Shown here piece after piece: positions 2,474-59,675 of a DNA stretch of 64,000 nt. Source of the DNA: an uncultured Acetobacteroides sp. (lineage in GTDB: Bacteria > Bacteroidota > Bacteroidia > Bacteroidales > ZOR0009); contig NZ_OY782755.1 in NCBI RefSeq assembly GCF_963678165.1, positions 2,418,001-2,482,000 of the forward strand. Reading direction: 5' to 3'. A program made the position numbers and the translations under genes. The notes below the pieces were generated by a model. It made no database searches. It saw only the letters and a list, made by a program, of their open reading frames with translations, and had not been told where the DNA came from. Numbering within the stretch: position 1 is the first letter of the stretch; every line of letters starts with the position of its first letter.

Positions 2474-2615
2474 CTTAGAGGTTCGAAACCTCCAAAATAG
2501 TGACCGAAGAGCCGACTGAAAGCCCTGAAATCAAAAGAAATGGAACAAAAAAGTCGACTCGGAAGGTTGAAAACAAAGGATAATGGGCGATAAGCTTACT
2601 CGGAAGCCTGAATAC
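2474..2615. repeat. Degenerate 41-42-bp tandem array (array H)
   Basis: Four diverged units with starts near 2474, 2515, 2557 and 2598. The clearest pair is ACTCGGAAGGTTGAAAACAA at 2557 and ACTCGGAAGCCTGAATACAA at 2598, exactly 41 bp apart. The first unit carries the dyad GAGGTT-CGA-AACCTC. It lies directly between the SDR gene and the IS-end-like sequence that follows. It is the weakest of the eight arrays. Confidence 0.5.
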
Positions 2616-2654
2616 AAAAAAATAGGGATGGCCGCAACTCCGTGAATACTCCCC
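2616..2654 (+). mobile_element. Relic resembling one terminus of the local IS256-family element
   Basis: The stretch AAAAAAATAGGG, then CCGTGAATACTCCCC, lines up with the left end of the IS at 23054 read on its minus strand (AAAAAATAGGG, then CCGTGAATAATCCC). No transposase sequence is attached. It is degraded, so descent from that IS family is an inference. Confidence 0.4.
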
Positions 2655-2689
2655 ACAAAAAAGCAAAGGTTGGCAACTTGCCAACCTTT
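2655..2689 (-). terminator. Terminator of the ptb-ptb-buk unit
   Basis: Perfect 12-bp inverted repeat (2665-2676 and 2678-2689, core GGTTGGCAA) followed on the minus strand by six Ts. It lies 26 nt past the buk stop. Confidence 0.85.
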
Positions 2690-2714
2690 TACCTAATATG
2701 TCTATCGAAGGATA

Positions 2715-3788
2715 CTACTTATACTCCTTGGGGGTAATCTCGTTCTTCAGAACGAATAGCCCGTTCATGGCCAGCGCCGCCATTTCGTCTTCGCCGGGGT
2801 AAACCACAATAGGAGCGGCAAACGAAACCATATCCTTTACGTAGTCTACAATGTAGGGGTTGTGAGCCATACCTCCGGTAAGAATAATGCCATCCACCTT
2901 ACCCTTCAGCACGCTAATCATGGTTCCAATCCACTTGCCAACGTTGTACGATAGCGCATCCTGGAGCAGCTTGGCATCGGCATCGCCCGCTACGGCTTTA
3001 GCCTCCAGCTCCTGCGCATCGTTGCTTCCGGTAAAGCCCACAAGGCCACCCTTTCCGTTGATGAGCTTACGTACCTCCTCGTAGGTGTACTTGCCGCTAA
3101 AGCAAAGCTTAGCCAGCTGTCCGGCAGGAAGCGTACCAGAGCGCTCGGGCGAGAAGGGGCCTTCGCCATCGAGCGCGTTGTTAACGTCGATAACGCGTCC
3201 CTTTTGGTGGGCGCCAACCGACACGCCGCCACCAAGGTGGGCAACAATCAGGTTAAGCTCCTCGTAGCTCTTGCCGATGCTATTGGCGTAGGTACGGGCA
3301 ATAGCCTTTTGGTTAAGGGCGTGAAAAATGGAGATGCGGCTGAATAGCGGATGTCCGGCAAAGCGGGCAACAGGCTGTAGCTCGTCTACCACCACAGGAT
3401 CGGCAATGTAGGCCTTTGCGCCAAGCTCCTTGGCGATATCGTCGGCAATTAGGCCGCCAAGGTTGCTGGCATGCTCGCCCATAACGCCCTTGCGCAAATC
3501 CGCCTTCATGGCCTCGTTCACCTCGTACACGCCCGATTCGATTGGCTTAAGCAGCCCGCCTCTACCCACAATTGCGGTGATGCTATTCAGCTCGATACCG
3601 GCATTGCCGAGCTCCTTTAGAATTACCTCCTTGCGGAACGAAAACTGGTCGGCAACCGTAGCAAAAGGCTTCAGCTCGTTGGCCGAGTGCTTGATATTTT
3701 TTAGAAAGATGTTCTCGTCGTTGGCATAAACAGCAATCTTGGTAGATGTAGATCCAGGATTGATGGCCAATATTTTATAGCATTCCAT
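2715..3788 (-). CDS. buk: Butyrate kinase
   Basis: Transfers phosphate from butyryl phosphate (often also isobutyryl or isovaleryl phosphate) to ADP, giving the acid and ATP. The 357-residue protein has the ASKHA-fold phosphate loops: AINPGSTSTKIAVY at the N-terminus, VAHLGGGVSVGAH about residue 180 and ILTGGMAHNPYIVDYV near residue 300. Full family length. It is the last gene of ptb-ptb-buk, 15 nt after the second ptb, and is followed by a strong terminator. Substrate chain length is not readable from sequence. Confidence 0.95.
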   Translation of the reverse strand: MECYKILAINPGSTSTKIAVYANDENIFLKNIKHSANELKPFATVADQFSFRKEVILKELGNAGIELNSITAIVGRGGLLKPIESGVYEVNEAMKADLRKGVMGEHASNLGGLIADDIAKELGAKAYIADPVVVDELQPVARFAGHPLFSRISIFHALNQKAIARTYANSIGKSYEELNLIVAHLGGGVSVGAHQKGRVIDVNNALDGEGPFSPERSGTLPAGQLAKLCFSGKYTYEEVRKLINGKGGLVGFTGSNDAQELEAKAVAGDADAKLLQDALSYNVGKWIGTMISVLKGKVDGIILTGGMAHNPYIVDYVKDMVSFAAPIVVYPGEDEMAALAMNGLFVLKNEITPKEYK

Positions 3789-3803
3789 TGTTATGTTGTT
3801 TTA

Positions 3804-4715
3804 TTAGTTTGCCATTAAGGATGCCGTTGCAATGCAGTAGAGCTTCGACTTAGCGCTCTCGCTGCGCGACATCATAATAACCGGCTTCGATGTTCCCTGA
3901 ATAAAGCCTCCCAGCTCGCCGCCGGCAAAGAGCATTAGCCCCTTATAAAAGGAGTTGCACGCCTCGATACTGGGGAAGATGAGGATATCGGCCTCGCCGT
4001 TTACGGGCGTAGGCACACCTTTTATCTCAACGCTCTTCGGATCGCAGGCCAAAAAGACATCCAGCGGTCCGTCGATGGTGCAGCTGGGGAGCTGCCCCCG
4101 CCTTGCCATTTGGCAGATGGTTGCATCAACCATCGTGTTGGGGATTGCCTCGCTGGGCTTTTCGACGGCGCTCACGAGTGCCACCTTGGGGTTAACGATG
4201 CCAAATCGGTTGGCCATCGCCACCGCATAGCCAACCATGGCCACCTTCTGCTGCAGCGTTGGAAATGGGATAACGGCCGGATCGGATATGAAGAGCAGCT
4301 TGCTATATGCAGGAATTTGCAGCGCACAAACGTAGGTCATTACCGCCTTGGGCAGCAAAAGGCCATTCTCCTTGTCGAGAACGGCCTTCAGGAACTTGTC
4401 GGTACCAATAAGCCCCTTCATCACCATATCAACCTCGTTGGTGCGAGCCATACGAACGGCCTCCTTGGCAGCGGCAGCATCGTTAGGGATATTAATGATG
4501 GTAAACTTATCGGGATCGACACCTTCGAACCTCAGCTTCTCTACGATTTTTTGCTCATCGCCTATCATAAAAGCCTCGATTAGGCCTAAATCGGTTGCCT
4601 CCGATACGGCACCAATGGTGTTTTCATCTTCGGCAAGCACTACCGCCACACGGCTTTTCTTTCCGGTTGACTTCAGCGTCAATATCAGCTCATCAAGGCT
4701 TTTGATAGGGGTCAT
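3804..4715 (-). CDS. ptb: Phosphate butyryltransferase-like protein (copy 2 of a tandem pair)
   Basis: Swaps CoA for phosphate on a short acyl-CoA, feeding butyrate kinase. 303 residues of the PTA_PTB fold, with the family stretches VDMVMKGLIGTDKFLKAVL, LLFISDPAVIPFPTLQQK, ALVSAVEKPSEAIPNT and DILIFPSIEACNSFYKGL. It lies 15 nt before buk and 17 nt after its paralogue, clearly one operon. The two copies share the fold and many motifs but differ throughout, so they are old paralogues rather than a recent duplication. They may differ in acyl preference or form a mixed complex; neither can be told from sequence. Confidence 0.9.
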   Translation of the reverse strand: MTPIKSLDELILTLKSTGKKSRVAVVLAEDENTIGAVSEATDLGLIEAFMIGDEQKIVEKLRFEGVDPDKFTIINIPNDAAAAKEAVRMARTNEVDMVMKGLIGTDKFLKAVLDKENGLLLPKAVMTYVCALQIPAYSKLLFISDPAVIPFPTLQQKVAMVGYAVAMANRFGIVNPKVALVSAVEKPSEAIPNTMVDATICQMARRGQLPSCTIDGPLDVFLACDPKSVEIKGVPTPVNGEADILIFPSIEACNSFYKGLMLFAGGELGGFIQGTSKPVIMMSRSESAKSKLYCIATASLMAN

Positions 4716-4732
4716 ATATTTGATGTGGTTTA

Positions 4733-5638
4733 TTACTTAGCAACTAGCGCAGCAAGCGCGATGGAGTATAACTTCGAAAGGGTCGAATCACCTCTCGACG
4801 ATAGCACAGCGGGAGCTTTCGTTCCGCAAACAATAGCACCTAACTCGGCACCGCTAAATTTAGTGCATGTCTTGTAGAAGACATTCCCCGATTCAATATT
4901 GGGGAAGAGTAGGCAGTCGGCATCGCCGGCAACTTCGCCGCCAACCTTCTTAACCTTGGCAACTTCGGCATCAATAGCAACGTCTAGCGAGATAGGGCCA
5001 TCAACAACCCCACCCCTTAGTTGTCCGCGCTCCGACATCTTTGCAAGAATAGAGGCCTCGATGCACGAAGGCATGCTTGGAAGCACCTTTTCCGATGCAG
5101 TAATTACAGCAACCTTTGGGCGTTCGATGCCCAACATCATTGCAACCTCAATCAGATAGTTGGCTATGGCTGTTTTCTGCTTTAAGTCTGGGGCAGGAAT
5201 AACTGCAACATCGCTTATGATTAGCAGCTTGTGGTATGCAGGAATTTCCAGAACAGCAACATGGCTAAGCACTCCCTTAGGAGGAAGAAGCCCGTTTTCC
5301 TTGTTGAGGATGGCGCGCATGTAGTTGTCGGTGCTGCAAAGGCCTTTCATCAGGATATCGCCCTCGCCAGCATTAATAAGCTCAACTGCTTTGCGGGCAG
5401 CCTTCACCTCGTTCGCCTCCTGAACAATAACGAACTTGTTGGCATCGATACCTTCTTCGGCGCAAACCTTTAGAATGGTTTCCCTATCGCCAACCAGCGT
5501 ACCATCTACCAATCCCTTTTCAATTGCCATATATACGGCCCCAATGGTGTGAGAGTCGTTTGCATAAGCAGCCACAATACGCTTCTTACTTCTAGTCTTA
5601 AGAAGCTCAAACATTTGTTCGAGTTTATTAATAGCCAT
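4733..5638 (-). CDS. ptb: Phosphate butyryltransferase-like protein (copy 1 of a tandem pair)
   Basis: Same reaction class as its neighbour. 301 residues from the ATG at 5638 (MAINKLEQMFELLKTRSKKR). The frame is open further upstream, but that part carries the likely promoter and has no family similarity. Motifs: GEGDILMKGLCSTDNYMRAI, LLIISDVAVIPAPDLKQK, VITASEKVLPSMPS, ADCLLFPNIESGNVFYKT. First gene of the ptb-ptb-buk operon, preceded by the terminator of the ackA unit, so it is transcribed from its own start. Confidence 0.9.
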   Translation of the reverse strand: MAINKLEQMFELLKTRSKKRIVAAYANDSHTIGAVYMAIEKGLVDGTLVGDRETILKVCAEEGIDANKFVIVQEANEVKAARKAVELINAGEGDILMKGLCSTDNYMRAILNKENGLLPPKGVLSHVAVLEIPAYHKLLIISDVAVIPAPDLKQKTAIANYLIEVAMMLGIERPKVAVITASEKVLPSMPSCIEASILAKMSERGQLRGGVVDGPISLDVAIDAEVAKVKKVGGEVAGDADCLLFPNIESGNVFYKTCTKFSGAELGAIVCGTKAPAVLSSRGDSTLSKLYSIALAALVAK

Positions 5639-5694
5639 AGCCCAAAAATTTACAATTATTACCGTTTCCGCTATTTCGCGTTTCAATTTCACAC

Positions 5695-5725
5695 CAAAAG
5701 TAATGCATTTTATTACAAACAAAAA
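5695..5725 (-). promoter_or_regulatory. Candidate promoter of ptb-ptb-buk
   Basis: On the minus strand TTTTTG (5720-5725) is followed after 17 nt by TACTTTTG (5695-5702), an exact TAnnTTTG. The -33 part overlaps the outer edge of the ackA terminator. Confidence 0.45.
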
Positions 5726-5754
5726 GGAGAAGCAAAATAATGCTTCTCCTTTTT
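5721..5754 (-). terminator. Terminator of pta-ackA
   Basis: A 14-bp inverted repeat (5721-5734 and 5741-5754, core AAGGAGAAGCA) with T-runs on both strands, 22 nt after the ackA stop. It separates acetate genes from butyrate genes. Confidence 0.88.
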
Positions 5755-5776
5755 CTATAAAAGTAACCTAGGAATT

Positions 5777-6985
5777 CTAGTTCTTAAGAATATTCATGGT
5801 GTCAGTAGCGATAACAAGTTCCTCGTTGGTGGTGCAAACCATCACCTTAACGCGAGAATTCTCCTTGGTAAGCACCTTATCCTGCCCGCGCACGCCACGA
5901 TTGGCATCTGAGTCGAAGTGAACGCCCATAAAGGCTAGGTGCGATCCAATAAACTCACGAAGAGGGCTGTCGTTCTCACCTACACCACCGGTAAACACAA
6001 TCAAATCTACCCCACCAAGAGTGGCAGCATACGATCCGATAAACTTAAGGATACGGTAGTAGTACATATCGATGGCTAGCTGGGCGCGCTCGTTACCTTC
6101 CTGAGCAGCAATATTCAGGTCGCGCATATCGGAGGTTAGCCCAGAGATACCTTTTACCCCACTCTGCTTGTTAACAAGGTCGTTGATTCCCTGAAGATCG
6201 AGTTTCTCCTTATCGGCTAAGTAAAGAAGAACACCAGCATCAACGCTTCCGCTTCGGGTTCCCATCATAAGACCATCTACAGGGGTGAATCCCATGGATG
6301 TATCCACCGATTTGCCATTGTTGATAGCGGTGATAGAGGCGCCATTACCAAGGTGACAGGTGATAATCTTGCTGGTGTTGAAGTTCATCCCTAGTATGCT
6401 ACAAGCCTTTTGAGCTACGTACTTGTGGCTTGTTCCGTGAAATCCGTAGCGACGGATGCCATACTTTTGGTAGTACTCGTAAGGGATAGCGTACAGGTAC
6501 GAGCAAGCGGGCATGGTTTGATGGAACGATGTATCGAAAACAGCAACCTGAGGAACACTTGGAAGAAGTGCCTCCATAGCCTCAATACCCTTCATGTTTG
6601 CAGGGTTGTGAAGTGGTGCTAGCTCGAAAAGGCTGGCAATACCTTCCTTAACCTTAGCATCGATTCGTACGCTGGTCTTAAAGAGCTCGCCACCATGCGC
6701 TACACGGTGTCCTACTGCTTCAATAGCTTTTATATCCTTTATTACCCCATGCTTTTCGTCAACAAGAGCCTTAAGGATTAGGTTAATCCCAACAACGTGG
6801 TCGTTAATGGGCTGAGTAATTGTATACTTCTCCTTACCTGCTGGTTTATGGGTAAGGACTCCGTCCTCTAACCCTATTCTTTCTACTAAACCTACTGCGA
6901 GTACGTCGTTATGCTTCTCGTCGATCATATCGAGGAGCTGGTACTTTACAGATGAGCTTCCGCAATTCAATACAAGTACAATCAT
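5777..6985 (-). CDS. ackA: Acetate kinase
   Basis: Makes ATP and acetate from acetyl phosphate. 402 residues, normal length. ASKHA motifs are intact: MIVLVLNCGSSSVKYQLLD at the N-terminus, VGHRVAHGG near residue 90, ITCHLGNGASITAI near 205, GTRSGSVDAGVL near 240 and VFTGGVGENDSPLRE near 325. It lies 30 nt after pta in the same unit and ends before a strong terminator. This gives the cell its main substrate-level ATP from acetyl-CoA. Confidence 0.97.
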   Translation of the reverse strand: MIVLVLNCGSSSVKYQLLDMIDEKHNDVLAVGLVERIGLEDGVLTHKPAGKEKYTITQPINDHVVGINLILKALVDEKHGVIKDIKAIEAVGHRVAHGGELFKTSVRIDAKVKEGIASLFELAPLHNPANMKGIEAMEALLPSVPQVAVFDTSFHQTMPACSYLYAIPYEYYQKYGIRRYGFHGTSHKYVAQKACSILGMNFNTSKIITCHLGNGASITAINNGKSVDTSMGFTPVDGLMMGTRSGSVDAGVLLYLADKEKLDLQGINDLVNKQSGVKGISGLTSDMRDLNIAAQEGNERAQLAIDMYYYRILKFIGSYAATLGGVDLIVFTGGVGENDSPLREFIGSHLAFMGVHFDSDANRGVRGQDKVLTKENSRVKVMVCTTNEELVIATDTMNILKN

Positions 6986-11248: not shown

Positions 11249-11672
11249 GGGTGAAGCTTCGCCCTTTTACCCTGAAGCTTCAGCCTCCGACCCCCAAGCT
11301 TCGAGCTTTAACCCTGAAGCTTCGGCAAATTTTAGTGAAGCTTCGCACTTCGCCCCCGAAACTTCAGCCTCCGAACCCCAAGCTTCAAGCTTTGACCCTG
11401 AAGCTTCGGCAAATTTTAGTGAAGCTTCGCACTTCGACCCCGAAGTTTCAGCCTCCGACCTCGAAGCTTCGCACTTTTACCCTGAAGCTTCGGCTAATTT
11501 TAGCGAAGCTTCGCACTTCGACCCCGAAGCTTTAGCCTCCGAACCCCAAGCTTCGAACTTTGACCCTGAAGCTTCAGCCTCCGAACCCCAAGCTTCGAGC
11601 TTTAACCCTGAAACTTCGGCAAATTTTAGTGAAGTTTCGCCTTCCGACCCGAATGCATTCCGCTTCTTTGGG
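11233..11672. repeat. Tandem array A, 21-bp period, about 21 units
   Basis: The motif AAGCTT or a variant recurs at 11254, 11275, 11296, 11317, 11338 and on to 11632 with a spacing of exactly 21. Each unit carries the 8-bp palindrome GAAGCTTC plus a C-rich half (ACCCC or ACCCT). Units alternate among a few types (with TCAGCCTCCGA, TTCGGCAAATTTTAG or TTCGCACTTCG), suggesting duplication of blocks. Because 21 is a multiple of three, a frame of repeated heptapeptides (ASxFDPE-like) stays open across it, but I see no start signal or codon constraint and do not call a protein. Confidence 0.92.
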
Positions 11673-12470: not shown

Positions 12471-12602
12471 ATTTCTCCCGCCTTAGCGGGAGGTCAGCGA
12501 AGCTGGGGGTGGTTGTTGGAAAAACATATAACAAATCTCTCCTATTTGGCATTAACCACCCCGCCCTACGGGCACCCCTCCCTAATAAAGGAGGGGAATC
12601 GC
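12471..12602. repeat. Hairpin-ended intergenic element (MITE-like or repeat family)
   Basis: A 132-bp block made of nested inverted repeats: a hairpin at its left (CTCCCGC/GCGGGAG, 12475-12492), a central pair GGGGTGGTT (12506-12514) and AACCACCCC (12554-12562), and a hairpin at its right (CCCCTCC/GGAGGGG, 12575-12596). It has no coding potential. Elements of this look are often dispersed in Bacteroidota genomes, but no second copy is present in this window. Together with the terminator it fills the gap between maoC and the DPP III gene. Confidence 0.6.
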
Positions 12603-12666
12603 GCTAATTTTCACCTAATGCTAGCGATAAAAGTTAGATTATTACAGATTCTAGCAATATGGTTTG

Positions 12667-16294: not shown

Positions 16295-16567
16295 CTATTG
16301 AACCGTATCAGTTAAACCTTTTCCAGCTTTAAATCTTACCACTTTTTTAGCAGCAATTTTAATTTCCTTACCACTTCTTGGATTTCTACCTGTTCTTGCT
16401 TTCCTCTCAGAAATTCCAAAAGAACCAAATCCAATTAAAACAACGCTATCACCACTCTTAAGAGCATCTGAAGTAACCTTAACAAAAGCATCAAGAGCTT
16501 TTTTAGCATCAGTTTTTGTCAATTTGGCTTCATCAGCCAATGCATCAATCAACTGAGTTTTGTTCAT
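16295..16567 (-). CDS. hup: DNA-binding protein HU family
   Basis: 90-residue histone-like protein that bends and compacts DNA. Starts MNKTQLIDALADEAKLTKTD and carries the HU signature GFGSFGISERKARTGRNPRS with the basic beta-arm and the intercalating-Pro region (GRNPRSGKEI). Full length, typical core copy. Its presence is of note only because several helically phased arrays lie in the same window; no link is shown. Confidence 0.95.
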   Translation of the reverse strand: MNKTQLIDALADEAKLTKTDAKKALDAFVKVTSDALKSGDSVVLIGFGSFGISERKARTGRNPRSGKEIKIAAKKVVRFKAGKGLTDTVQ

Positions 16568-22827: not shown

Positions 22828-23053
22828 ACCCTGCTTTTTGCAGCCTCAACCCTGCAATTTTGAAGGTTCACCCTGCTTTTTGCAGCCTTGACCTTGCAAT
22901 TTGCAGCCTCTACCCTGCTTTTTGCAGCCTGCACCCTGCTTTTTGCAGCCTTCACCCTGCAATTTGCAGCCTCTACCCTGCTTTTTGCAGCCTGCACCCT
23001 GCAATTTGCAGCCTACACCCTGCTTTTTGCAGCCTACACCCTGCAATTTGCAG
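22828..23053. repeat. Tandem array B, 21-bp period, 11 units, split by an IS
   Basis: ACCCTGC recurs at 22828, 22849, 22870 and every 21 bp to 23038 (once as ACCTTGC). Each unit has a dyad: CTGCTTTTTGCAG in one unit type and the longer CTGCAATTTGCAG in the other. The array stops inside a unit at the IS left end, and its remainder (ATTTGCAGCCTCTAAC) resumes at 24492 beyond the IS right end. Confidence 0.93.
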
Positions 23054-23128
23054 GGGATTATTCACGGAACTGTGTCTACCCTATTTTTTCGGAAGCAGGA
23101 ATTACGCCTGCCTTTTAGGTTAGGGCTG

Positions 23129-23185
23129 CTAGCGGGGCAAGGGTGGCGGAGGAACGGAGCCACTTGTATACCCTTGCCCCGCTAG
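23129..23185. repeat. Large hairpin inside the IS, downstream of the transposase
   Basis: A 16-bp perfect inverted repeat, CTAGCGGGGCAAGGGT (23129-23144) and its complement at 23170-23185, 25-nt loop. It lies after the transposase stop and could stop transcription or be part of the end structure. A degraded version of its outer flank recurs in the relic at 34062. Confidence 0.75.
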
Positions 23186-23214
23186 GAGGCCTGGCCTTCC
23201 TTCGCGGGTGTTCT

Positions 23215-24438
23215 TCATGCTCCAAACTTGGCCATCCGCTCGGCAAATTTAATGCAAAGCTGCCCGTAGATGAGCTTCCACCCCGCAACTTCCCGCTTTG
23301 GGCTCGAGTTGATATCCCGAATAACGAGGTATATCAGCTTCTTGATGGCCATGTCGGAGGAGAAGCACCCCTTGGTCTTGGTCACCTTCCGCATGCGCCG
23401 GTGGATGCCCTCGATGGGGTTGGTGGTGTACATGAGCCGGCGGATCTCCCTGCCGAAGTCGAAGAAGGAGCTCAGCTTGTACCAGTTTTCCCGCCAGCTC
23501 TTGACGGCGGTGGGGTACTTCGTCCCCCAGCGCTCGGCGAAGCGCTCGAGCTCCGCCTCGCCCGCCTCCAGCGTGGGGCTGCCGTAGATGGCCCGCATGT
23601 CGGCGGTGATGGCCTTGTAGTCTTTTTTAACCACGTACTTGAGCGTGCTGCGCACCTGGTGGACGATGCAGCTCTGGATGACCGTCTCGGGAAAGGTGCT
23701 GCTGATGGCCTCGCTGAAGCCCTTGAGGTTATCCGTGCAGGCGATCAGGATGTCCTCCACGCCCCGAAGGCGCAGATCCTGCAGCACCTCCAGCCAGAAG
23801 CGGGCCGACTCGCTCCCGGCAATGTAGATGCCCAGCAGCTCCCGAAAGCCCTCCTGGCTGACCGCGTAGACGTTGTAGAGCGCCTTGCCCTGCACTGCAC
23901 CGCCCTCGCGGCACTTGAAGTGGATGGCGTCGAACCAGACTATCGCGTAGAGCGGGCTCAGCGGGCGCTGCTGCCACTCCTGCAGCTCGGGGATGAGCCG
24001 ATCGGTGAGCTCGCTCATCTGGGCGGGCGAGAGCGAAAGCCCGTAAACCTCCATCAGCAGCTTCCGAATGTCGGCGTAGCTCATCCCCTTGGCGTAGAGC
24101 GAGAGCACCTTCTCGCAGAGCTCGTCGTCCAGCAGCACCTGCCGCTTGGCCACGATCTCTGGGGTAAAGGATCCGTTACGGTCTCTGGGGGGGCTGAGCT
24201 CAAACTCGCCGTTCGAGCTCTTAACCGTTTTGGTGGTAGCGCCGTTGCGCTTGTTGCCCTCCGAATCCTTCAGGTGCTGCTCCAGCTCCAGCGCTAGGGC
24301 CTTCTCCAAAAAGTGCTTGAGCAGCGGGGCGAACACCCCATTCTCGCCGCTTAGGCTCTTGCGCTCGTAAAGGCCTTTGATGGCCTCCTTCTCAAATTCC
24401 TCGTAGCTGAAGCTCGCTACTTTTTCTTCCTCTTTCAT
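23215..24438 (-). CDS. IS256-family transposase
   Basis: 407 residues from MKEEEKVASFSYEEF. Transposase of the mutator/IS256 type (MULE fold): a Zn-less N-terminal region with KDSEGNKRNGATTKTVKSSN, then the DDE core with Asp in AIVWFDAIHFKCREGG, Asp in ILIACTDNLKGFSEA and the CxxHQ helix SCIVHQVRSTLKYV, and the catalytic Glu expected in TNPIEGIHRRMRKVTK. Full length, no frameshift, so probably active. I start at 24438 rather than 24462 because TAACTTTG, an exact -7 box, lies at 24445-24452, between the two. Confidence 0.92.
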   Translation of the reverse strand: MKEEEKVASFSYEEFEKEAIKGLYERKSLSGENGVFAPLLKHFLEKALALELEQHLKDSEGNKRNGATTKTVKSSNGEFELSPPRDRNGSFTPEIVAKRQVLLDDELCEKVLSLYAKGMSYADIRKLLMEVYGLSLSPAQMSELTDRLIPELQEWQQRPLSPLYAIVWFDAIHFKCREGGAVQGKALYNVYAVSQEGFRELLGIYIAGSESARFWLEVLQDLRLRGVEDILIACTDNLKGFSEAISSTFPETVIQSCIVHQVRSTLKYVVKKDYKAITADMRAIYGSPTLEAGEAELERFAERWGTKYPTAVKSWRENWYKLSSFFDFGREIRRLMYTTNPIEGIHRRMRKVTKTKGCFSSDMAIKKLIYLVIRDINSSPKREVAGWKLIYGQLCIKFAERMAKFGA

Positions 24439-24444
24439 TGTCTG

Positions 24445-24452
24445 CAAAGTTA
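24445..24452 (-). promoter_or_regulatory. -7 element of the transposase gene inside the right end of the IS
   Basis: TAACTTTG on the minus strand matches TAnnTTTG and is preceded after 20 nt by CTG in the terminal repeat. It predicts a nearly leaderless mRNA. Confidence 0.45.
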
Positions 24453-24521
24453 TCGTTATCATTTTGCAGACACAGTTGCATGAACAGTCTCATTTGCAGC
24501 CTCTAACACCCACAACATGGG

Positions 24522-33333: not shown

Positions 33334-33350
33334 CAAACCATAAAATAAAG

Positions 33351-33389
33351 CCAAGCGCAGCCACCACCCCGGCTGCGCTTGGCTTTTTT
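33351..33389 (+). terminator. Terminator of the GH2 unit; also copy 1 of a local repeat
   Basis: Perfect 12-bp arms CCAAGCGCAGCC (33351-33362) and GGCTGCGCTTGG (33371-33382) followed by six Ts. The right arm and the sequence to 33414 recur in degraded form at 34000-34056 and 34359-34401. Confidence 0.9.
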
Positions 33390-33513
33390 GCTACTTTTGG
33401 GTTGCGGATTGGAGAACGATGCTGAGCAACGAAGAGGTTGCAACAGAGCCTAGCCTCGGCGCGGGATGCACAAGTAAAATACATTTTACAATCATCTGAA
33501 ACTATTTTTTAAA

Positions 33514-34056: not shown

Positions 34057-34061
34057 GGTCG

Positions 34062-34146
34062 CTAGCAGTTCTAGCGTAGAAGGCAGGCGTAATTTCTGCT
34101 ACCAAGAAAAAAGGGGACGCATAGCTACGGGAATACTCCTGCACAT
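34062..34146 (+). mobile_element. Relic of the left end of an IS256-family element
   Basis: CGCTAGCAG, then GGCAGGCGTAATTTCTGCT, then the A-rich AAAAAAGGGG and GGGAATACTCC, match the left 85 bp of the IS at 23054 read on its minus strand (CGCTAGCAG, GGCAGGCGTAATTCCTGCT, AAAAAATAGGG, GTGAATAATCCC). No transposase remains. Its outer end lies 2 bp before the first unit of array C. Confidence 0.65.
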
Positions 34147-34148: not shown

Positions 34149-34357
34149 GAGGTCGCTGGTCATATATCAGCGGTGTACAGCAATTCTACAGCGGTGTACG
34201 GTAATACTTCAGCGGTGTATACCAATACTACAGCGGTGTATACCAATACTACAGCAGTGTATACCGATACTACAGCGGTGTATGGCATACTTCAGCGGTG
34301 TATGGCAATACTACAGCAGTGTATAGCGACACTACAGCAGTGTATGGCGTACCTGAG
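34149..34357. repeat. Tandem array C, 21-bp period, 10 units
   Basis: CAGCGGTGTA or CAGCAGTGTA recurs at 34170, 34191, 34212, 34233, 34254, 34275, 34295 (one 20-bp step), 34316 and 34337, with a diverged first unit at 34149. Some units carry the short dyad GGTGTATACC. Confidence 0.92.
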
Positions 34358-35131: not shown

Positions 35132-35395
35132 CCCGTACTGAAGCCAGTACACCTCCGTGCAGTATGCAGGAACCCGTACTGAAACCAGTACGCCTCCATG
35201 CAGTGTGCAGGAACTCGTACTGAAGCCAGTACGCCTCCATGCAGTGTGCAGGAACCCGTACTGAAGCCAGTACGCCTCCATGCAGTGTGCAGGAACCCGT
35301 ACTGAAGCCAGTACAGCTCCATGCAGTGTGCAGGACCCCGTACTGAAGCCAGTACGCCTCCATGCAGCGTGCAGGAACCCGTACTGAAAGCAGAA
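35132..35395. repeat. Tandem array D, 41-bp period, 7 units
   Basis: GTACTG recurs at 35135, 35176, 35217, 35258, 35299, 35340 and 35381, exactly 41 bp apart. Each unit holds two dyads about 20 bp apart: GTACTG-AAGC-CAGTAC, whose loop varies (AAAC in unit 2) while the stem is kept, and TGCAGTGTGCA. It lies between the convergent RNA ligase-like and DUF5020 genes. Confidence 0.93.
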
Positions 35396-37738: not shown

Positions 37739-37882
37739 CTAGAATGCGCAACGGAACGCCCCGCCAGGAAGCAAGAGCCATTTGGTCGGCCAAATTACTT
37801 TCCGCTGGCAGCGGATTGCCATTTACTCGACCAAACGGCAGCTGCAAAGCGTGAATCTCCCCAACGTAGCGCTCCGTAGCCC

Positions 37883-38993: not shown

Positions 38994-39098
38994 TCAAGAA
39001 TCAAGATATTAGATACTAGACATTAGACTTTAGATAATAGATAATAGATACACGTACTGCGAAATCCTCTTGATACATGTGTCGTGCGTCTTGATTCC
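38994..39098. repeat. Inverted-repeat-bounded element with TAGATA-type short repeats
   Basis: GAATCAAGA at 38998 and TCTTGATTC at 39089 bound about 100 bp containing imperfect copies of ATTAGATA, ACATTAGAC and ATAGATAATAGATA. The right arm runs up to the gltD stop codon. Such TTAGATA-rich elements look like a dispersed repeat; no other copy is in the window. Confidence 0.5.
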
Positions 39099-45192: not shown

Positions 45193-45905
45193 ACTATACA
45201 ACAATACCATCAAATTACTTAACTAATCGACTATATATCTAGGTATTTTATGCATTACAATATATCGCATAAGCACGATTTATCCTGTTGCCTCGTGTTT
45301 TTAGCAGCGTAATCCAAATGCCCCGAACAACAAATCCGCTACTACGCAAGATGCCTTGTAAAAAACGCCCACACCAGTACAGTATCTAGACAGCGTCTAG
45401 TAAATTATATAAGCCAACATGCAGGGCGAGCAATTACTACTATAACAGTATCCGCTTACAAAGCGACTTAAAAACAGGTTAAAGAACAAGAATGAGCTCA
45501 CGCGTAAACAATGGCTTGCTTTGGTGTAATGCTATGCCAACATTACAATTTACCGCCTACTCCTTAATAACTCTAAAATAATCAGAGAGAGCTGTACGAA
45601 TATTGGCTTTCTATTTTCGCGTTTTGCTAAAAGTAGAGATTATTTCCAATAATAAAAATCAATCGAATTGGGGCTGACTGCCAATACATAAATTGATTAT
45701 AAGCATTATAAAGCCGTTTTCTTACTACTATTTTTAAATACTCCTAATTTAGAACTTGAGATGTAGAGCAGCCCCAAAAAAGCGCTTACAAATTGTAGCT
45801 TAATCTTCGAAATTGCATTTAATACTCTTTTAACCTTTACATGTACACCTTAATAGATTAGGACTTGCATTGAATACAGGTTGCTATTTTAGCTGTAAGC
45901 CCAAA
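45193..45905. other. AT-rich gene-free stretch upstream of gltB
   Basis: About 700 bp without an ORF of note on either strand, without a tRNA-like fold and without tandem repeats. Composition is more AT-rich than coding DNA. It may hold the distal gltB control region or an unrecognised small RNA; I see nothing I can support. Confidence 0.4.
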
Positions 45906-45963
45906 TGTCAGACGCTACTCCTGCTTCCGAGAAAATAGGGTAGACACAGCTCCGTGAATAATT
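45906..45963 (+). mobile_element. Relic of the left end of an IS256-family element
   Basis: CTCCTGCTTCCGAGAAAATA, then GGGTAGACACAGCTCCGTGA and ATAATTCC match the left end of the IS at 23054 on its minus strand (CTGCTTCCGAAAAAATAGGG, TAGACACAGTTCCGTGAATA, ATCCC) with few changes. This is the best preserved relic. No transposase is attached; outer end points right toward array E. Confidence 0.7.
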
Positions 45964-46097
45964 CCTGAATCCCCACCAGCAGCCCCGCACCTGCGGCTTA
46001 CACATTGGCACCTTACCCTTTACGTTGCCTATTTCTCGCCTAAGCGACGAGGCTTACAGGCCTTGCACCCCCTTTGCTGATGATGAAAGCCACGGTG

Positions 46098-46285
46098 GAA
46101 GCCTCAATAACCAGTTCGGAACTGGTTATTACCTGCTCGAAACAGGTTACGAACCAGTTCGGAACTGGTTATTACCTGCTCGCAACTGGTTATTACCTGC
46201 TCAGAACTGGTTACGAACCTGTACGCAACTGGTTATTACCTGTTCGGAGCCGGTTATAAGCAGTTCAGAGCAGCTTATTGGGTAT
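46098..46285. repeat. Tandem array E, 21-22-bp period, about 9 units
   Basis: AACTGGTT or a variant recurs at 46120, 46163, 46184, 46205, 46227 and 46248 (steps of 21 or 22, one double step of 43). Unit core: AACTGGTTATTACCTGCTC. Dyads include AACCAGTTC-G-GAACTGGTT at 46152-46170 and GGTTATTACC. It lies downstream of dapA, 140 bp right of the IS relic. Confidence 0.85.
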
Positions 46286-52244: not shown

Positions 52245-52282
52245 AGACCTGACAGATTTTAAAAACCTGTCAGGTCTTTTTG
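52245..52282 (+). terminator. Terminator of the RSH gene
   Basis: AGACCTGACAG (52245-52255) pairs with CTGTCAGGTCT (52267-52277), then five Ts. 28 nt past the stop. Confidence 0.9.
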
Positions 52283-52301
52283 TAAGTGTAGGTCTTTACA
52301 A

Positions 52302-52675
52302 AATGTGGAAGGCTGCCTACTCAGTAGATAGACCTCCGCAAAAATGTGGAAGGCTACCTACTCAGTAGATAGCCTTCCGCAAAAATGTTGAAACCTCCCT
52401 ACTCAGTAGATAGGCTTGCGCAAAAATGTTGAAGCCTCCCTACTCAGTAGATAGGCTTGCGCAAAAATGTTGAAGCCTGCCGGTTCAGCCGAGAGGCTTG
52501 CGCAAAAATGCTGAGGCCTGCCGGTTCAGCCGATAGGCTTCCGCAAAAATGTTGAAGCCTGCCGGTTCAGCCGAGAGGCTTGCGCAAAAATGCTGAGGCC
52601 TGCCGGTTCAGCCGATAGGCTTCCGCAAAAATGTTGAAGGCTGCCGGTTCAGCCGAGAGGCTTGCGCAAAAATGT
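52302..52675. repeat. Tandem array F, 41-bp period, 9 full units plus a partial one
   Basis: AATG recurs at 52302, 52343, 52384, 52425, 52466, 52507, 52548, 52589, 52630 and 52671, exactly 41 bp apart. Each unit has an outer stem (AAGGCT with AGCCTT, or AAGCCT with AGGCTT) around an inner stem that is CTACTCAGTAG in units 1-4 and CGGTTCAGCCG in units 5-9, separated by the linker GCGCAAAAATG or CCGCAAAAATG. Units 5/7 and 6/8 repeat as pairs, so the array also grew by 82-bp doubling. It lies between the convergent RSH and AsmA-like genes. Confidence 0.95.
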
Positions 52676-52713
52676 TTGGGATCATTTGGGATGAAAAGAC
52701 ATTCCCGAATTTA

Positions 52714-52745: not shown

Positions 52746-52753
52746 GAAACAGG

Positions 52754-55779: not shown

Positions 55780-55808
55780 TCGAATATATTCTAATGGTTA
55801 TTTTAACC

Positions 55809-55816
55809 CAAAACTA
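55809..55816 (-). promoter_or_regulatory. -7 element of the AsmA-like gene
   Basis: TAGTTTTG on the minus strand, exact TAnnTTTG, 29 nt before the ATG. Confidence 0.4.
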
Positions 55817-55935
55817 GTGAAATTTCGCAGCAATAGCCTTTCCCAACTAGTAATAAGCGCTAAGTTTTGCGGCCTTTTGTGAATCAGTAAAAAGACAGAA
55901 GGGATCAATCCGAAAATTCGGTGAGGATATAAATA

Positions 55936-55971
55936 GAAAAAGGGATAGCAATTTTAATTGCTATCCCTTTT
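55936..55971 (-). terminator. Terminator of the tRNA-Leu pair
   Basis: Perfect 16-bp arms (55938-55953 and 55956-55971, core AGGGATAGCAATT) with Ts on the minus strand, 6 nt after the second tRNA. Confidence 0.93.
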
Positions 55972-55977
55972 CATTTG

Positions 55978-56061
55978 TGCTCAGGATGAGACTCGAACTC
56001 ACACGGGCTAACGCCCACTACCCCCTCAAAGTAGCGTGTATACCAATTTCACCACCTGAGC
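55978..56061 (-). tRNA. tRNA-Leu(GAG)
   Basis: 84 nt on the minus strand. Acceptor GCTCAGG with CCTGAGC, discriminator A. Anticodon stem CTACT/GGTAG with loop TTGAGGG, anticodon GAG. Long variable arm. CCA is not encoded. Second of two tRNAs on one transcript. Confidence 0.95.
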
Positions 56062-56082
56062 ATTTGCTTTAATCAACTTGCG

Positions 56083-56166
56083 TACCCGGAACAGGACTCG
56101 AACCTGCACGCTATTGCTAACACTAGTCCCTGAAACTAGCGCGTCTACCAATTCCGCCATCCGGGC
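56083..56166 (-). tRNA. tRNA-Leu(CAG)
   Basis: 84 nt on the minus strand. Acceptor GCCCGGA with TCCGGGT (first pair G-U), discriminator A. Anticodon stem CTAGT/ACTAG with loop TTCAGGG, anticodon CAG. CCA is not encoded. It lies 21 nt before tRNA-Leu(GAG). Confidence 0.95.
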
Positions 56167-56200
56167 ATTGCTTGTGTCAGCGTTTCAAAGATTGACGGTG

Positions 56201-56230
56201 CAAAAGTATAGATTTTTCGGGTATCTGCAA
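56201..56230 (-). promoter_or_regulatory. Promoter of the tRNA-Leu pair
   Basis: TTG (56228-56230), 19-nt spacer, TACTTTTG (56201-56208) on the minus strand, same spacing as before tRNA-Ser. 34 nt lie between the -7 box and the first tRNA. Confidence 0.75.
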
Positions 56231-56268
56231 GGATTTCGCTGAAAAAAGCTACACTTTTTTAGGATTGA

Positions 56269-56306
56269 AAAACAAATGGAGAATGGGCTTTAACCATTCT
56301 CCATTT
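56269..56306 (-). terminator. Terminator of the DPP IV gene
   Basis: Perfect 13-bp arms AAATGGAGAATGG (56274-56286) and its complement (56294-56306), then a T-rich run on the minus strand, 27 nt past the stop. Confidence 0.85.
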
Positions 56307-56333
56307 ATTCTTATTGACTTACAAGTTTACCTG

Positions 56334-58505
56334 CTATAGGTTTGTTTCTACGTAATTCAAAAATTTGGTGTAGAGCTGCAGCCTTGTTTTGCCCCCGTAG
56401 ATGCTGTGGTTCTTATCGGGGTAAACCATCATATCGTACTGCTTGTTGGCCTGAATGAGCTTGGAGACGAACTCAAAGGAGTTTTGGATATGCACGTTAT
56501 CGTCGGCGGTGCCGTGTACGATTAGTAGCTTGCCCTTAAGCTTATCGGCGTGGTTGATGGGCGAGTTATCGTCGTAGCCGCTGGGGTTGTCGTTGGGTAG
56601 GCCGTTGAAGCGCTCGGTGTAAACGCTATCGTAGAAGCGCCAGTTGGTAACGGGAGCAACGGCAATAGCCATCTTGAAGATGTCGGCACCCTGTAGGATG
56701 GCGTTGAGCGACATAAAGCCTCCGAAGCTCCATCCCCAAATGCCGATGCGGCTTTTATCAACGTAGGATAAAGATCCTACGTACTTGGCGGTGCTGATTT
56801 GATCGATCACCTCTAGCTTGCCGAGTTGCCCGTAGGTTTGCTTGCGGAATGCTTCGCCACGGGCACCCGTTCCGCGACCATCGACGCAAACAACTAGGTA
56901 TCCCTTTTGGGCAAGTACGTTCTCCCACCCTAGCCCCCAGCGGTCGAGCACCTCCTGCGAGTTAGGACCGCTGTACTGGGTCATCAGCACGGGGTACTTT
57001 TTAGCGGGATCGAAGTTAACCGGCTTAATCATCCAGCCATTTAGGGTAACACCCTCGGGAGTTACAAAGGTAAAGAACTCCTTGGGGGTGATATTGTACT
57101 CGGTGACCTTTTGCGCTAGTGCAGCGTTATCCTCCAAGGTTCGAATTTGCTTACCGGTTGCCTGATGCAGCGTGATAAGCATTGGGGTGGTAGTGCTGTT
57201 GAAGAAGCTGATGTAGTACTTAAAGCCTGTGCTAAATACAGCCTTATTGGTTCCTGCATTGGTCGAGAGCATACGGCTTTCGCCGCTCTTAAGGTTGGCC
57301 ACGTAGAGCTCGCGCTGCATGGGCGATTTGGCAGCGGCAATGTAGTAAGCCAACCCGTTCTTCTGGTCAACACCTATAAAGTCGGTTACATCCCAGCTGC
57401 CCTTGGTGATCTGCTTTACCTGTTTCCCGTTCATATCGAAAAGGTAGAGGTGGTTAAAGCCATCCTTTTCGCTGTTGATGATGAACTGGGTGCCGTTGTC
57501 GAGAAAGGTGAGGTAGCTGTCGGTTACCTCGGAGATGTACCTATCGTTCTTCTCGGAGTAGAGCGTGGTGGTGGTGCCGTCGGCGGAGCTGCCAACGAGG
57601 ATGTCGAGCTGGTTTTGGAGGCGGTTAAGGCGTACCATGGCGAGCTTTGCGGGGTTCTTGGTCCATCGGATACGGGCAATGTACTGGTTATCCTCGTTGC
57701 CGACGTTCATCTTGGTGGATTTGGCCGCCGCTAGATTGTAGCAGTAGATGGAGACAACTGAGTTCTGCTCGCCAGCTTTGGGGTACTTGTAGCTGTAGTT
57801 GTCGGGGTAGAGCTTACCCTCGAACTTGGTCATGTTGAAGAGCTTTACGCGCGACTCGTCGAAGCGGTAGTAGGCGATGGTTTTGCTGTCGGGCGACCAC
57901 TCGAAGGCCTTGGGGAAGCCGAACTCCTCCTCGTACACCCAATCGGTAGAGCCGTTGATGATGCTGTTGAACTTTCCATCGGTGGTTACCTGTACCTCCT
58001 TGCCGGTGGCTAGATCGACGTAAAAAATATTGTTGGAGCGGACGAAGGCTACCTTGGCGCCATCGGGCGAGAAGGTGGCGTAGCTCTGCTTGCCGCTTGC
58101 CGAAAGCGGCTTGATCTCCTTGGTAGTCCTATTGAAGATGTAGTAGCTGGCGGTAAACGATCGACGGTAGATGGGGGCGCTGTCGGTGAGCAGGAGCACC
58201 TGCTTTTCGTCGGCGCTGAACTCGTAGTCGGAAACCGATTTCAGCCCAAACTTCTGCAGCTGCGCTGCCGTAAGAATGGTATCAACCGCCCTGCCGGTTT
58301 TGTAGCTGTACTCGACGATGTCGCTCCCGCTAAAGGCGGTATAGTTAACGCCATCGTTCATTGAGCTGATGCCCGAGACCGATTTCGCCCTGAATGTTCC
58401 CTTATCCATGAGGTCGGAGATGGTGATCTCCTTCTTTTGAGCCAACGATGGTATGCCTACGAGTAGTAAAGCAGCCAGCCCAAGGGCTAATCTCCCCTTC
58501 TGCAT
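56334..58505 (-). CDS. Dipeptidyl peptidase IV (S9 family serine peptidase)
   Basis: 723 residues, exported: signal peptide MQKGRLALGLAALLLVGIPS with cleavage near AQK. N-terminal eight-bladed propeller (with the substrate-binding pair in STDWVYEEEFGFPKAFEWSP), then an alpha/beta-hydrolase domain. The catalytic triad is Ser593 in IWGWSFGGFMS, Asp668 in HGTADDNVH and His700 in DKNHSIYGG. It removes X-Pro or X-Ala dipeptides from peptides in the periplasm, supporting peptide use together with the DPP III-family enzyme. Monocistronic with its own promoter and terminator. Confidence 0.95.
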   Translation of the reverse strand: MQKGRLALGLAALLLVGIPSLAQKKEITISDLMDKGTFRAKSVSGISSMNDGVNYTAFSGSDIVEYSYKTGRAVDTILTAAQLQKFGLKSVSDYEFSADEKQVLLLTDSAPIYRRSFTASYYIFNRTTKEIKPLSASGKQSYATFSPDGAKVAFVRSNNIFYVDLATGKEVQVTTDGKFNSIINGSTDWVYEEEFGFPKAFEWSPDSKTIAYYRFDESRVKLFNMTKFEGKLYPDNYSYKYPKAGEQNSVVSIYCYNLAAAKSTKMNVGNEDNQYIARIRWTKNPAKLAMVRLNRLQNQLDILVGSSADGTTTTLYSEKNDRYISEVTDSYLTFLDNGTQFIINSEKDGFNHLYLFDMNGKQVKQITKGSWDVTDFIGVDQKNGLAYYIAAAKSPMQRELYVANLKSGESRMLSTNAGTNKAVFSTGFKYYISFFNSTTTPMLITLHQATGKQIRTLEDNAALAQKVTEYNITPKEFFTFVTPEGVTLNGWMIKPVNFDPAKKYPVLMTQYSGPNSQEVLDRWGLGWENVLAQKGYLVVCVDGRGTGARGEAFRKQTYGQLGKLEVIDQISTAKYVGSLSYVDKSRIGIWGWSFGGFMSLNAILQGADIFKMAIAVAPVTNWRFYDSVYTERFNGLPNDNPSGYDDNSPINHADKLKGKLLIVHGTADDNVHIQNSFEFVSKLIQANKQYDMMVYPDKNHSIYGGKTRLQLYTKFLNYVETNL

Positions 58506-58546
58506 TTCGTTTTTTATTTAGTAAGTATTTACGGACACTGAAGCGC

Positions 58547-58577
58547 CAAAAGTATGCAACTACGGGCAAAGCGCCAA
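58547..58577 (-). promoter_or_regulatory. Promoter of the DPP IV gene
   Basis: TTG (58575-58577), 20-nt spacer, TACTTTTG (58547-58554) on the minus strand, 41 nt before the ATG. Confidence 0.6.
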
Positions 58578-58653
58578 TTAATATAGACACCCAAATTCCC
58601 TAAAACTGGCAGCTCGTAAAAGATTATCTTTAGCCAATCAAATACGATACGCT

Positions 58654-59391
58654 ATGAACGATACGGCACCGGCATACCAGCGCCTAATGGACGAGCTGGT
58701 AAACCTTCAGGATCCATCGACCCAAAAGGTGGTTCAGTACTTCTTTAAAACCGAGCAGGGGCAGTATGGCGAGGGGGATAAGTTTTTGGGGATTAAGGTG
58801 CCGGTGGTGAGGGCTACCATTAAGCCGTACCTACACGAGGTAGCGCCTATAGAGGTTGAGCACCTGTTGCACTCGGAGTACCACGAGGTGCGGATGGCAG
58901 GGCTGCTGGTTTGGGTTAACCAGTACAAGAAGCTGAAGGATGAGGCTGCCCGTAGGGAGATCGTTGACCTCTACCTTAGGAATACGCGATACGTGAACAA
59001 CTGGGACTTGGTGGACCTGAGCTGCGAGTTCATCGTTGGCGAGTACCTGCTGGATAAGCCCGCCGATTGGCTCTTCGCCCTGGCAAAGTCGGAGAACCTG
59101 TGGGAGCAGCGCATCGCCATTGTCTCGACGCTGACCTTTATCCGGAAGGGGCGCTACGGGGATACGCTGGCCCTGTGCGAGGGTTTCCTAGACCACCAGC
59201 ACGACCTGATTCATAAGGCCTCGGGATGGTGCCTGCGCGAGATCGGAAAGCGCGACGAGGCTGTTCTTAGAGAGTTCCTCGAAGCGCATGCGCACGCTAT
59301 GCCCCGCACCATGCTGCGCTACAGCATCGAAAAGATGAACGAGCAGGATAGGAAGTACTTCATGGAGGCTAGGGCAAGAAGCGGCAGGTAA
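58654..59391 (+). CDS. DNA alkylation repair protein (AlkD-like)
   Basis: 245 residues, all-helical HEAT-like repeat fold of the AlkC/AlkD DNA glycosylase superfamily. Seen: KFLGIKVPVVRATIKPYLHE near residue 45, HEVRMAGLLVWVNQYKK, TRYVNNWDLVDLSCEFIVGE with the NNWD(L)VD motif that holds the catalytic Asp, and LIHKASGWCLREIGKRDEAV. These enzymes remove alkylated bases without base flipping. Whether this member acts on DNA is not shown. Divergent from DPP IV; followed by array G. Confidence 0.88.
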   Translation: MNDTAPAYQRLMDELVNLQDPSTQKVVQYFFKTEQGQYGEGDKFLGIKVPVVRATIKPYLHEVAPIEVEHLLHSEYHEVRMAGLLVWVNQYKKLKDEAARREIVDLYLRNTRYVNNWDLVDLSCEFIVGEYLLDKPADWLFALAKSENLWEQRIAIVSTLTFIRKGRYGDTLALCEGFLDHQHDLIHKASGWCLREIGKRDEAVLREFLEAHAHAMPRTMLRYSIEKMNEQDRKYFMEARARSGR

Positions 59392-59402
59392 GGAATTGCT
59401 AG

Positions 59403-59675
59403 CCCTGCGGGAATAGCGCTAAGCGTGGAAGCCTTTGTGCTAAGCGCAGGAGCGTATGTGTAATCCGCAGGAGCGATTGTGTAACTCGCAGGTGCGATTG
59501 TGTAAGCCGCAGGTCTGAATGTGTAACTCGCAGGTGCAATTGTGCAAGTCGCAGGTGTGATTGTGTAAGCCGCAGGTGTAATTGTGTAAAGCAACGGAGC
59601 GATTGTGTAGAGCGACGGAGCCAATGTGTAAGCCGCAGGTGCCAGTGTGTAAATCGCAGGTGCGAGTATGCTGAA
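59403..59675. repeat. Tandem array G, 21-bp period, 12-13 units
   Basis: CGCAGG or a variant (CAACGG, CGACGG) recurs at 59445, 59466, 59487, 59508, 59529, 59550, 59571, 59592, 59613, 59634 and 59655, exactly 21 bp apart, with diverged units at 59403 and 59424. Core: CGCAGGTGCGATTGTGTAA. Adjacent units form TGCGA/TCGCA dyads across their border. Three minus-strand frames stay open because 21 is a multiple of three. It lies between the convergent AlkD-like and beta-barrel genes. Confidence 0.93.

Follow-up and report, generated by a model that had tools for sequence, protein, structure and literature searches.

Introduction

What could impose one unit length on tandem repeats whose sequences are unrelated? 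The question is raised by a 64,000-nucleotide stretch of DNA (the window; bases 2418001-2482000) from an uncultured Acetobacteroides sp. (assembly GCF_963678165.1), whose genome, designated G000 here, is one contig of 4,298,710 bp. A first-pass annotation of the window had listed eight tandem arrays with units alike within arrays and unrelated between them, stepping by 21 bp or about 41 bp, and had proposed a common mechanism behind the shared step. Tandem repeats are usually classed by sequence; in these arrays length alone is conserved, over more than 100 sequence groups in three genomes, and the question becomes which component of a bacterial cell can measure off 21 bp of duplex DNA without regard to its sequence. 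The answer could reveal a new nucleoid protein or a quantised duplication process. The account to which we lean, with a little less than even confidence, is that the arrays are bacterial satellites, mostly non-coding, intergenic and of fast turnover, in which the 21-bp quantum is probably set by the register of a putative protein on duplex DNA.

Samples and Definitions

The G000 sample (844 kb, about one fifth of the genome) consisted of the window and 39 evenly spaced 20-kb stretches, and arrays were called with Tandem Repeats Finder (TRF) at a score of at least 80. TRF samples from elsewhere came from two genomes of the same genus, G002 (RelA 96% identical to that of G000; 1.09 Mb, about one quarter of the genome) and G001 (RelA 80% identical; 371 kb), and from other families of the order (286 kb). 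The best named matches to the RelA protein of G000 come from a MAG labelled Chitinophaga pinensis (50% in its best segment) and a Saprospiraceae MAG (44%), and point to Bacteroidota. The period assigned to an array is the smallest TRF period with a score no less than 0.3 of that of its best row. Placement relative to genes was judged from simple, crude in-house gene calls, from which open reading frames (ORFs) consisting of array over more than 30% of their length were discarded as chance ORFs. Sequence groups were formed from a pooled set of 159 arrays (81 from G000, 69 from G002, and 9 from G001), some of which were reached through searches with insertion sequence (IS) or array queries, so that the set is not a random sample.

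A Ladder of Periods

In G000, 70 of 72 arrays have periods of 20–22, 41–44, 84, 85, or 105 bp. The counts are 20 bp (1 array), 21 (20), 22 (3), 41 (13), 42 (24), 43 (5), 44 (1), and 84, 85, and 105 (1 each); the two off-ladder periods are 27 and 228 bp. Array density is about 85 per Mb. Markov resamples of the 40 sample sequences gave no TRF row at a score of at least 80, and the probability of the ladder under a flat spread over periods 15–110 is about 1e-41 (computed for 69 of the 70 arrays). The ladder recurs in G002, where 67 of 73 arrays lie on it (21, 22, 41–44, 81, 84, 106, 122, and 189 bp, with six others at 7, 8, 14, 15, 255, and 258 bp), and in G001 (9 of 11; the others at 12 and 30 bp). 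A genome-wide peak at 21 and 41–42 bp, whose absence the first-pass annotation had named as a refutation, is present.

The other families of the order yielded nine arrays, one at 21 bp, one at 42 bp, and the rest at 7, 7, 10, 14, 18, 115, and 249 bp. Three additional 20-kb stretches from other-family genomes held two arrays, both in G031 (one of 41 bp, one with a best TRF row of 121 bp), and two 12-kb named loci gave no array. Within these samples the ladder is strong in the genus and at most sparse outside it. Single arrays in other families lie at L211:16885-17054 in G031 (41 bp) and at L137:6168-6298 in G032 (21 bp).

Among the 72 G000 and 73 G002 arrays there are no periods of 28–40 or 45–80 bp, and hence none of three or five helical turns (about 31 or 52 bp), so that the rule appears to be one of multiples of 21 and not of whole turns in general. 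The halves are related in arrays of the 21/42/84/105 class (identity 0.467 at lag 21) but not in those of the mixed 41/43/44/22/81–85/122 class (0.255 at lag 21 and 0.340 at lag 22), which indicates that much of the 41–43 class is not a doubled 21-mer, although it lies on the ladder. The periodicity extends beyond called arrays: in G000 intergenic DNA with TRF arrays masked, self-similarity peaks at lags 21, 42, 63, 84, and 105, with 20 and 22 near baseline, and in G002 at 21, 42, and 63 (the z values treat positions as independent, and short lags of 5–12 are raised too). Part of the intergenic DNA may therefore be decayed array.

Two simple sources of the period were considered and rejected. 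Coding repeats of 7 or 14 residues do not account for it, since periods of 41, 43, and 44 bp (19 of the 72 G000 arrays) are not multiples of three; codons are excluded as the cause by the 41- and 43-bp arrays, while lone arrays of 21 or 42 bp could still code. An origin in 7-bp steps (21 = 3 x 7) finds a 7n ladder in relatives within the order but does not fit the 41-, 43-, and 44-bp periods. Separately, window positions 39004-39050 hold a degenerate heptamer tract (AGATATT-like), and a 7n self-similarity ladder is seen in intergenic DNA of other families of the order.

The Arrays of the Window

The eight arrays are referred to as A (2474), B (11233), C (22828), G (34149), D (35132), E (46098), F (52302), and H (59403), the assignment of letters, with G ahead of D, having been chosen to fit the periods given by the first-pass annotation. 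The arrays and the smaller features near them, without strand unless one is given, are:

2474-2640: array A, decayed, period about 41-42 (self-match lags 125, 42, 83, 41, and 84; orthologous intergenic region in G002)
11251-11617: array B, period 42/84 with a weak 21 (TRF; related 42-bp array at the same G002 site)
22828-23053: array C, period 21/63 (TRF; cut near its right end by an IS256-family element; relative at L085:1696-2007, 88%)
34167-34352: array G, period 21 (TRF row 21/62/83)
35132-35388: array D, period 41 (TRF; in the largest dispersed family seen, with four further loci in G000)
37777-37835: a nascent (proto-) array or a relic of one, with about 1.5 units of a 41-bp repeat (G002 has about 6.5 copies there)
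46107-46278: array E, period 21/43/64 (TRF; relative at L094:5209-5348)
52246-52281, plus strand: terminator-like hairpin and T run 3' of relA, ahead of array F (by reading; present in G002)
52300-52676: array F, period 41/123 (TRF; relative at L204:4040-4417, 71%; unrelated 42-bp array at the same G002 site)
59435-59665: array H, period 21/42/63 (TRF; relative at L089:13492-13801, 84%; 42-bp array at the corresponding position in G002, alike in part by eye)

TRF recovers all of the eight but one, and the sequence was also read directly. The eighth, array A, exists as a decayed array: it is below TRF detection at a score of 40 and its best self-match lag reaches only about the 99% level of shuffles, but the orthologous intergenic region in G002 is a clear 41-bp array. 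Its period of 21 bp in the first-pass annotation is to be replaced by about 41–42 bp. Arrays B and H overlap ORFs of 150 and 173 codons, which are taken as chance ORFs built of the repeat; long ORFs of this kind are common in the arrays, 21 and 42 both being divisible by three.

Turnover at Fixed Sites

Comparison with G002 shows three outcomes at orthologous sites: the array persists, is missing, or belongs to another family. Of 64 G000 array sites (L095 included), 18 are syntenic in the sampled G002 DNA, and G002 carries an array at 11 of them but not at the other 7 (two of the 11, both at L014, match a single G002 array across poor junctions). For four of these sites (L007:11893, L017:768, L017:8231, and array B) BLAST puts the G000 and G002 arrays in the same group, and others are partly alike by eye, as are array H and its 42-bp counterpart. 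At L007:3317, where synteny is loose, the 41-bp unit appears half kept and half replaced. Unit number differs as well: the 41-bp repeat at 37777 has about 1.5 units in G000 and about 6.5 at G002 C17:46492.

A difference of family is seen at site F, downstream of relA. Both flanks align up to the arrays in long segments (89 and 85%), yet the array is a 41-bp one in G000 and an unrelated 42-bp one in G002, the latter 80% identical to L090:11038-11375 of G000. A second case, in which one flank is comparable, is the start of G002 contig C3, where a 42-bp array faces a flank that in G000 (L204) adjoins a 41-bp array of the F family. Clean insertion footprints were not visible at the four array-free G002 sites that were aligned, the intergenic regions being too diverged.

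Differences in unit number between relatives, and the likeness of units within an array, are also what would be expected of pure mutational satellites, in which slippage or unequal recombination and small hairpins generate the arrays, the step of a replication or repair enzyme sets the 21 bp, and no binding protein or function is involved. In line with this explanation, one third of units fold better than shuffles, the arrays of G000 have no orientation preference (both described below), and exact 10-base two-copy repeats outside TRF rows, which may themselves be decayed arrays, lean to the ladder in G000 (7 at 20–22 bp and 7 at 41–43 bp among 76 pairs, with about 1.5 expected). The lean is weak in G002, where there are 4 at 20–22 and 6 at 41–43 but 5 at 30–32 among 82 (1.65 expected), and we know of no slippage process that is quantised at 21 bp across unrelated sequences. 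A quantised mutational process nevertheless remains a strong rival, possible if on balance doubtful.

Sequence Groups and Dispersal

At a strict BLAST threshold the 159 pooled arrays fall into 126 groups, of which 102 are singletons and 24 have two or more members; at a looser threshold 101 arrays fall into 73 groups with 52 singletons. One period across so many groups in three genomes points to a mechanism in common, as first proposed. The accompanying claim that sequences are unrelated between arrays stands for the many groups but not for arrays C, D, E, F, and H, each of which has a relative elsewhere in G000; array B has its relative at the same G002 site, and array G has none among the sampled sequences of the three genomes.

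In 11 pairs of related arrays, similarity stops no further than about 25 bases from the edge of the array, two chance-level matches of 19 and 23 bases excepted. Related loci share the array alone and not a larger element. A search for a shared motif flanking the arrays turned up the end of an IS256-family element and some dispersed repeats. Intergenic repeats of the dispersed kind are present in the window at 12485-12625 (some 30 matches in G002) and at 33345-33465 (matches in both G001 and G002). One sampled stretch, L008 (G000 110001-130000), has a G+C content of 0.39, against 0.44–0.55 in the other 19 stretches examined, is 96% coding, holds no array at a score of 80, and is perhaps an island or prophage.

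Placement, Transcripts, and Hairpins

The arrays lie outside genes, as had been claimed: after removal of chance repeat-made ORFs, only 2 of 70 ladder arrays in G000 and 6 of 67 in G002 are in ORFs. The further claim that they are mostly downstream of genes fails as a rule in G000, where all orientations occur (38 co-directional, 14 divergent, 13 convergent, and 3 at stretch ends) in shares close to those of intergenic bases; convergent regions hold 13 of 65 placed arrays and 17% of intergenic bases (p 0.30). G002 (25 co-directional, 16 divergent, 18 convergent, and 2 at stretch ends) shows some convergent excess, with 18 of 59 placed arrays against 19% of bases (p 0.02). A preference for gene ends was accordingly set aside for G000.

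Small inverted repeats are common in the units. With each unit compared with shuffles of itself, however, folding is significantly better (p<=0.05) for 43 of 127, and a dyad is significant in 31 of 127. In the 61 arrays with a consensus stem of at least 5 pairs, the pair is intact in 2133 cells, altered on one side only in 328, altered on both sides with compensation in 22, and altered on both sides without pairing in 16. The excess of compensatory over uncompensated double changes has p 0.0016 against one third by chance, although the changes are not independent, and oriented single changes favour G.T over A.C (56 against 38, p 0.08). Hairpin structure is thus a tendency and not a preserved feature, perhaps serving as a seed of duplication. 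Hairpins as an invariant of the arrays were rejected: an earlier count of 54 of 97 at z<-2 came from a null that shuffled tiled units, unit-level shuffles shrink the effect, and pair-breaking changes dominate.

These data bear on a role in RNA, in which transcribed arrays would fold into series of hairpins at the ends of transcripts and thereby stabilise, terminate, or insulate them. Hairpin potential in one third of units, the compensatory and G.T changes, and the convergent excess in G002 speak for it; weak conservation of the hairpins weighs against an RNA cause, as do the 328 pair-breaking single changes, the lack of a significant fold in most units, and the arrays in divergent intergenic regions. 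Also against it, array F lies, by eye, between two terminator-like hairpins, and the only Rfam matches in the window are tRNAs. We consider a role in RNA improbable.

The suggestion that repeated dyads face one side of the DNA is not supported, given that most units lack a significant dyad or fold and that 41-bp arrays drift in phase: over 9 copies a 41-bp array falls behind a 42-bp array by about 9 bp (by arithmetic), so that helical phase is not kept over long range. Harmonic analysis gave raised even harmonics of 42, including 10.5 and 7, but the doubling of 21-bp units in that analysis promotes harmonics of even order, and self-matching inside arrays showed nothing at 10–11 bp and little at 7 or 14. 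A 10-bp curvature signal was therefore discarded.

An IS256-Family Element at Array Edges

The element that interrupts array C and two of its remnants in the window, all on the minus strand, are:

23054-24491: IS256-family element, 1438 bp (NF033543, 378.8 bits, cut-off 150)
23215-24462: transposase of the IS256-family element (NF033543)
34060-34139: solo end remnant of the element, 27 bp from array G (nhmmer E 6.7e-17)
45900-45965: solo end remnant of the element, 144 bp from array E (nhmmer E 4.7e-19)

Members of the IS256 family make target duplications of 8–9 bp. A fragment of the array C unit resumes past the element at 24492, with the 8-bp duplication ATTTGCAG (read from sequence), and 8-bp duplications are visible by eye at L140, L144, L145, and L147 among the full copies, with none obvious at L142. 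Together with the transposase profile, the duplications place the element in this family.

G000 has 8 full copies and 8 partial-end loci (17 hits, two of which are one locus). Arrays keep to one end, that beside the transposase stop codon (LE in our notation; by convention the right end). In 6 of the 8 full copies an array starts within 30 bp outside LE, for which a rough binomial gives 7e-9 with the genome as background and 2e-4 with intergenic DNA (estimated array cover 2.5 and 14%); copy L143 has two copies of a 21-bp repeat on its other side (by eye; no TRF call), and L146 has no adjacent array. Seven of the 8 partial loci have an array within 144 bp outside LE, and L156 has it on the inner side, so that 13 of all 16 loci carry an array 0–144 bp outside the same end. 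An LE profile run over the 844-kb sample gave 8 strong matches, 7 with an array 1–144 bp outside, and 2 weak matches without one. Three of five G002 contigs that start with LE run into an array, the fourth has a weak array further in, and the fifth has none; the three that start with the other end have no array within 3 kb.

That the element creates arrays at its own end could explain this association, and at L149 and E the G000 site has both a remnant and an array where the G002 site has neither. But G002 carries the same 42-bp array at the L147 site without the element, the element cuts array C, and only 7 of the 70 arrays in the G000 sample lie beside a recognisable IS end. The array at L147 and the interruption of array C indicate that at these two loci the array came first, and the element as maker of arrays, contradicted at L147 unless it left G002 cleanly, is highly improbable. 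Arrays attract this insertion sequence and could serve as strain markers. At L151/L155 (G000 2728923-2729018), a miniature element of two IS256-family ends lies beside a 21/42/63-bp array.

What Could Set the 21-bp Quantum

The observations that a mechanism has to join are the period ladder, change in unit number, likeness of units within arrays, dispersal of the array alone, change of family at a fixed site, and IS copies at array edges. If the register of a protein is responsible, something that ignores sequence would set the 21-bp quantum on double-stranded DNA, most plausibly a putative DNA-binding protein that occupies two turns and tiles the array, and only duplications in register with 21-bp steps would arise or survive. 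The 41-type units, whose unrelated halves span four turns, weigh against simple doubling of a 21-mer, and the absence of three- and five-turn units favours a 21-bp footprint over phasing by the face of the helix. A wider formulation, held more loosely still, is that a sequence-blind 21-bp ruler, whether a protein or a replication-repair machine, lays down or preserves two-turn arrays at several hundred mostly intergenic sites (a number extrapolated from 85 arrays per Mb) and that families are exchanged at fixed sites.

Several results weigh against a tiling protein. Constant helical phase is lost over many copies in the 41-bp arrays, and exact two-copy repeats in G002 are as common at 30–32 bp as at 20–22 bp (5 and 4 of 82). 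HU-family matches are not expanded (3 in G000, one of them at window 16301-16567, 2 in G001, and 3 in G002, HU and PF00808 being the DNA-binding families searched), and a search of the genus for the PF00808 histone fold gave no match; an expansion of either was accordingly dropped as the source of a candidate protein. If a protein tiles the arrays, no mark is expected within the unit, and self-similarity at 10 or 11 bp is lacking, which is compatible with such a protein without being positive evidence for it.

Comparison with Known Systems

Intergenic tandem repeats, clusters of repetitive extragenic palindromic (REP) sequences and bacterial interspersed mosaic elements (BIMEs), and targeting by insertion sequences are all known kinds of thing. 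In the open-licence literature (most subscription papers being outside its scope) no description was found of a unit length of 21 bp shared across unrelated bacterial arrays.

Like the REPs and BIMEs of E. coli, Pseudomonas, and Stenotrophomonas, which are intergenic, often palindromic, amplified in tandem, variable between strains, and targets of insertion sequences, the arrays lie between genes; a test for palindromic units picks out 43 of 127 by folding (p<=0.05) and 31 of 127 by dyad score. Excerpts of the report on ISRm5, also of the IS256 family, place five of seven copies in intergenic regions with REPs (PMC1525189). From the portions consulted of two REP studies, a genome has one or few REP sequence classes, many with a GTAG-type tag and a gene for a REP-associated tyrosine transposase (RAYT) (PMC2817692; PMC3733652). 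The arrays of this genus form dozens of sequence groups instead of one or few shared classes in many copies (126 groups from 159 arrays), and it is the unit length that they have in common.

Movement by RAYT (Y1) transposases in a REP/BIME-like system was weighed on the same grounds. The arrays are intergenic, dispersed, and found beside IS copies, G000 has seven Y1_Tnp matches (five open frames above the cut-off, one with stops, and one below the cut-off), and two of three loci examined, L197 and L199, lie in palindromic clusters. No cognate transposase adjoins the arrays, however: none of the seven loci has a 21-ladder TRF array (score at least 55) in flanks of about 1.5 kb. By eye, with no BLAST comparison, the palindromic repeats at L197 and L199 do not resemble the array units inspected, and no sequence is common to the arrays. 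RAYT was therefore rejected as the mover, and such a system is very unlikely. The RAYT-like genes L197, L198, and L199 are at G000 positions 1998192, 1151636, and 656628; at L197, 104-nt repeats are spaced by 105, 629, 210, and 105, with smaller repeats 51–52 apart, near multiples of 10.5 bp, a spacing that the repeats at L199 do not fit.

Guide-RNA or CRISPR-like arrays (CRISPR, TIGR, VIPR) resemble the arrays in being tandem, intergenic, and of fixed step. In CRISPR and TIGR, repeats alternate with variable spacers, whereas whole units are near-identical in the window arrays, which leaves no room for spacers, and a density of about 85 arrays per Mb speaks against the comparison as well. VIPR repeats are pentamers, mainly of phages, in the sections consulted of their description (PMC13142463). 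An origin of this kind is scarcely credible.

Parallels are also offered by intergenic variable number tandem repeats (VNTRs), or minisatellites, which are likewise tandem and variable in unit number between relatives. The intergenic repeats of Planctomycetota are so described in the excerpts consulted (PMC9426551). The arrays of the present genus share both properties.

A common unit length among unrelated sequences is not known from any VNTR set. Eukaryotic satellite DNA has alike units, higher-order repeats, and turnover of families; the arrays have alike units, higher-order multiples (63, 84, 105, 123, and 126 among TRF rows), and family turnover, and differ in being bacterial, short, present at many sites, and built on a 21-bp base unit. 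Arrays laid down or preserved by a 21-bp ruler would be the bacterial counterpart of nucleosome-phased satellites.

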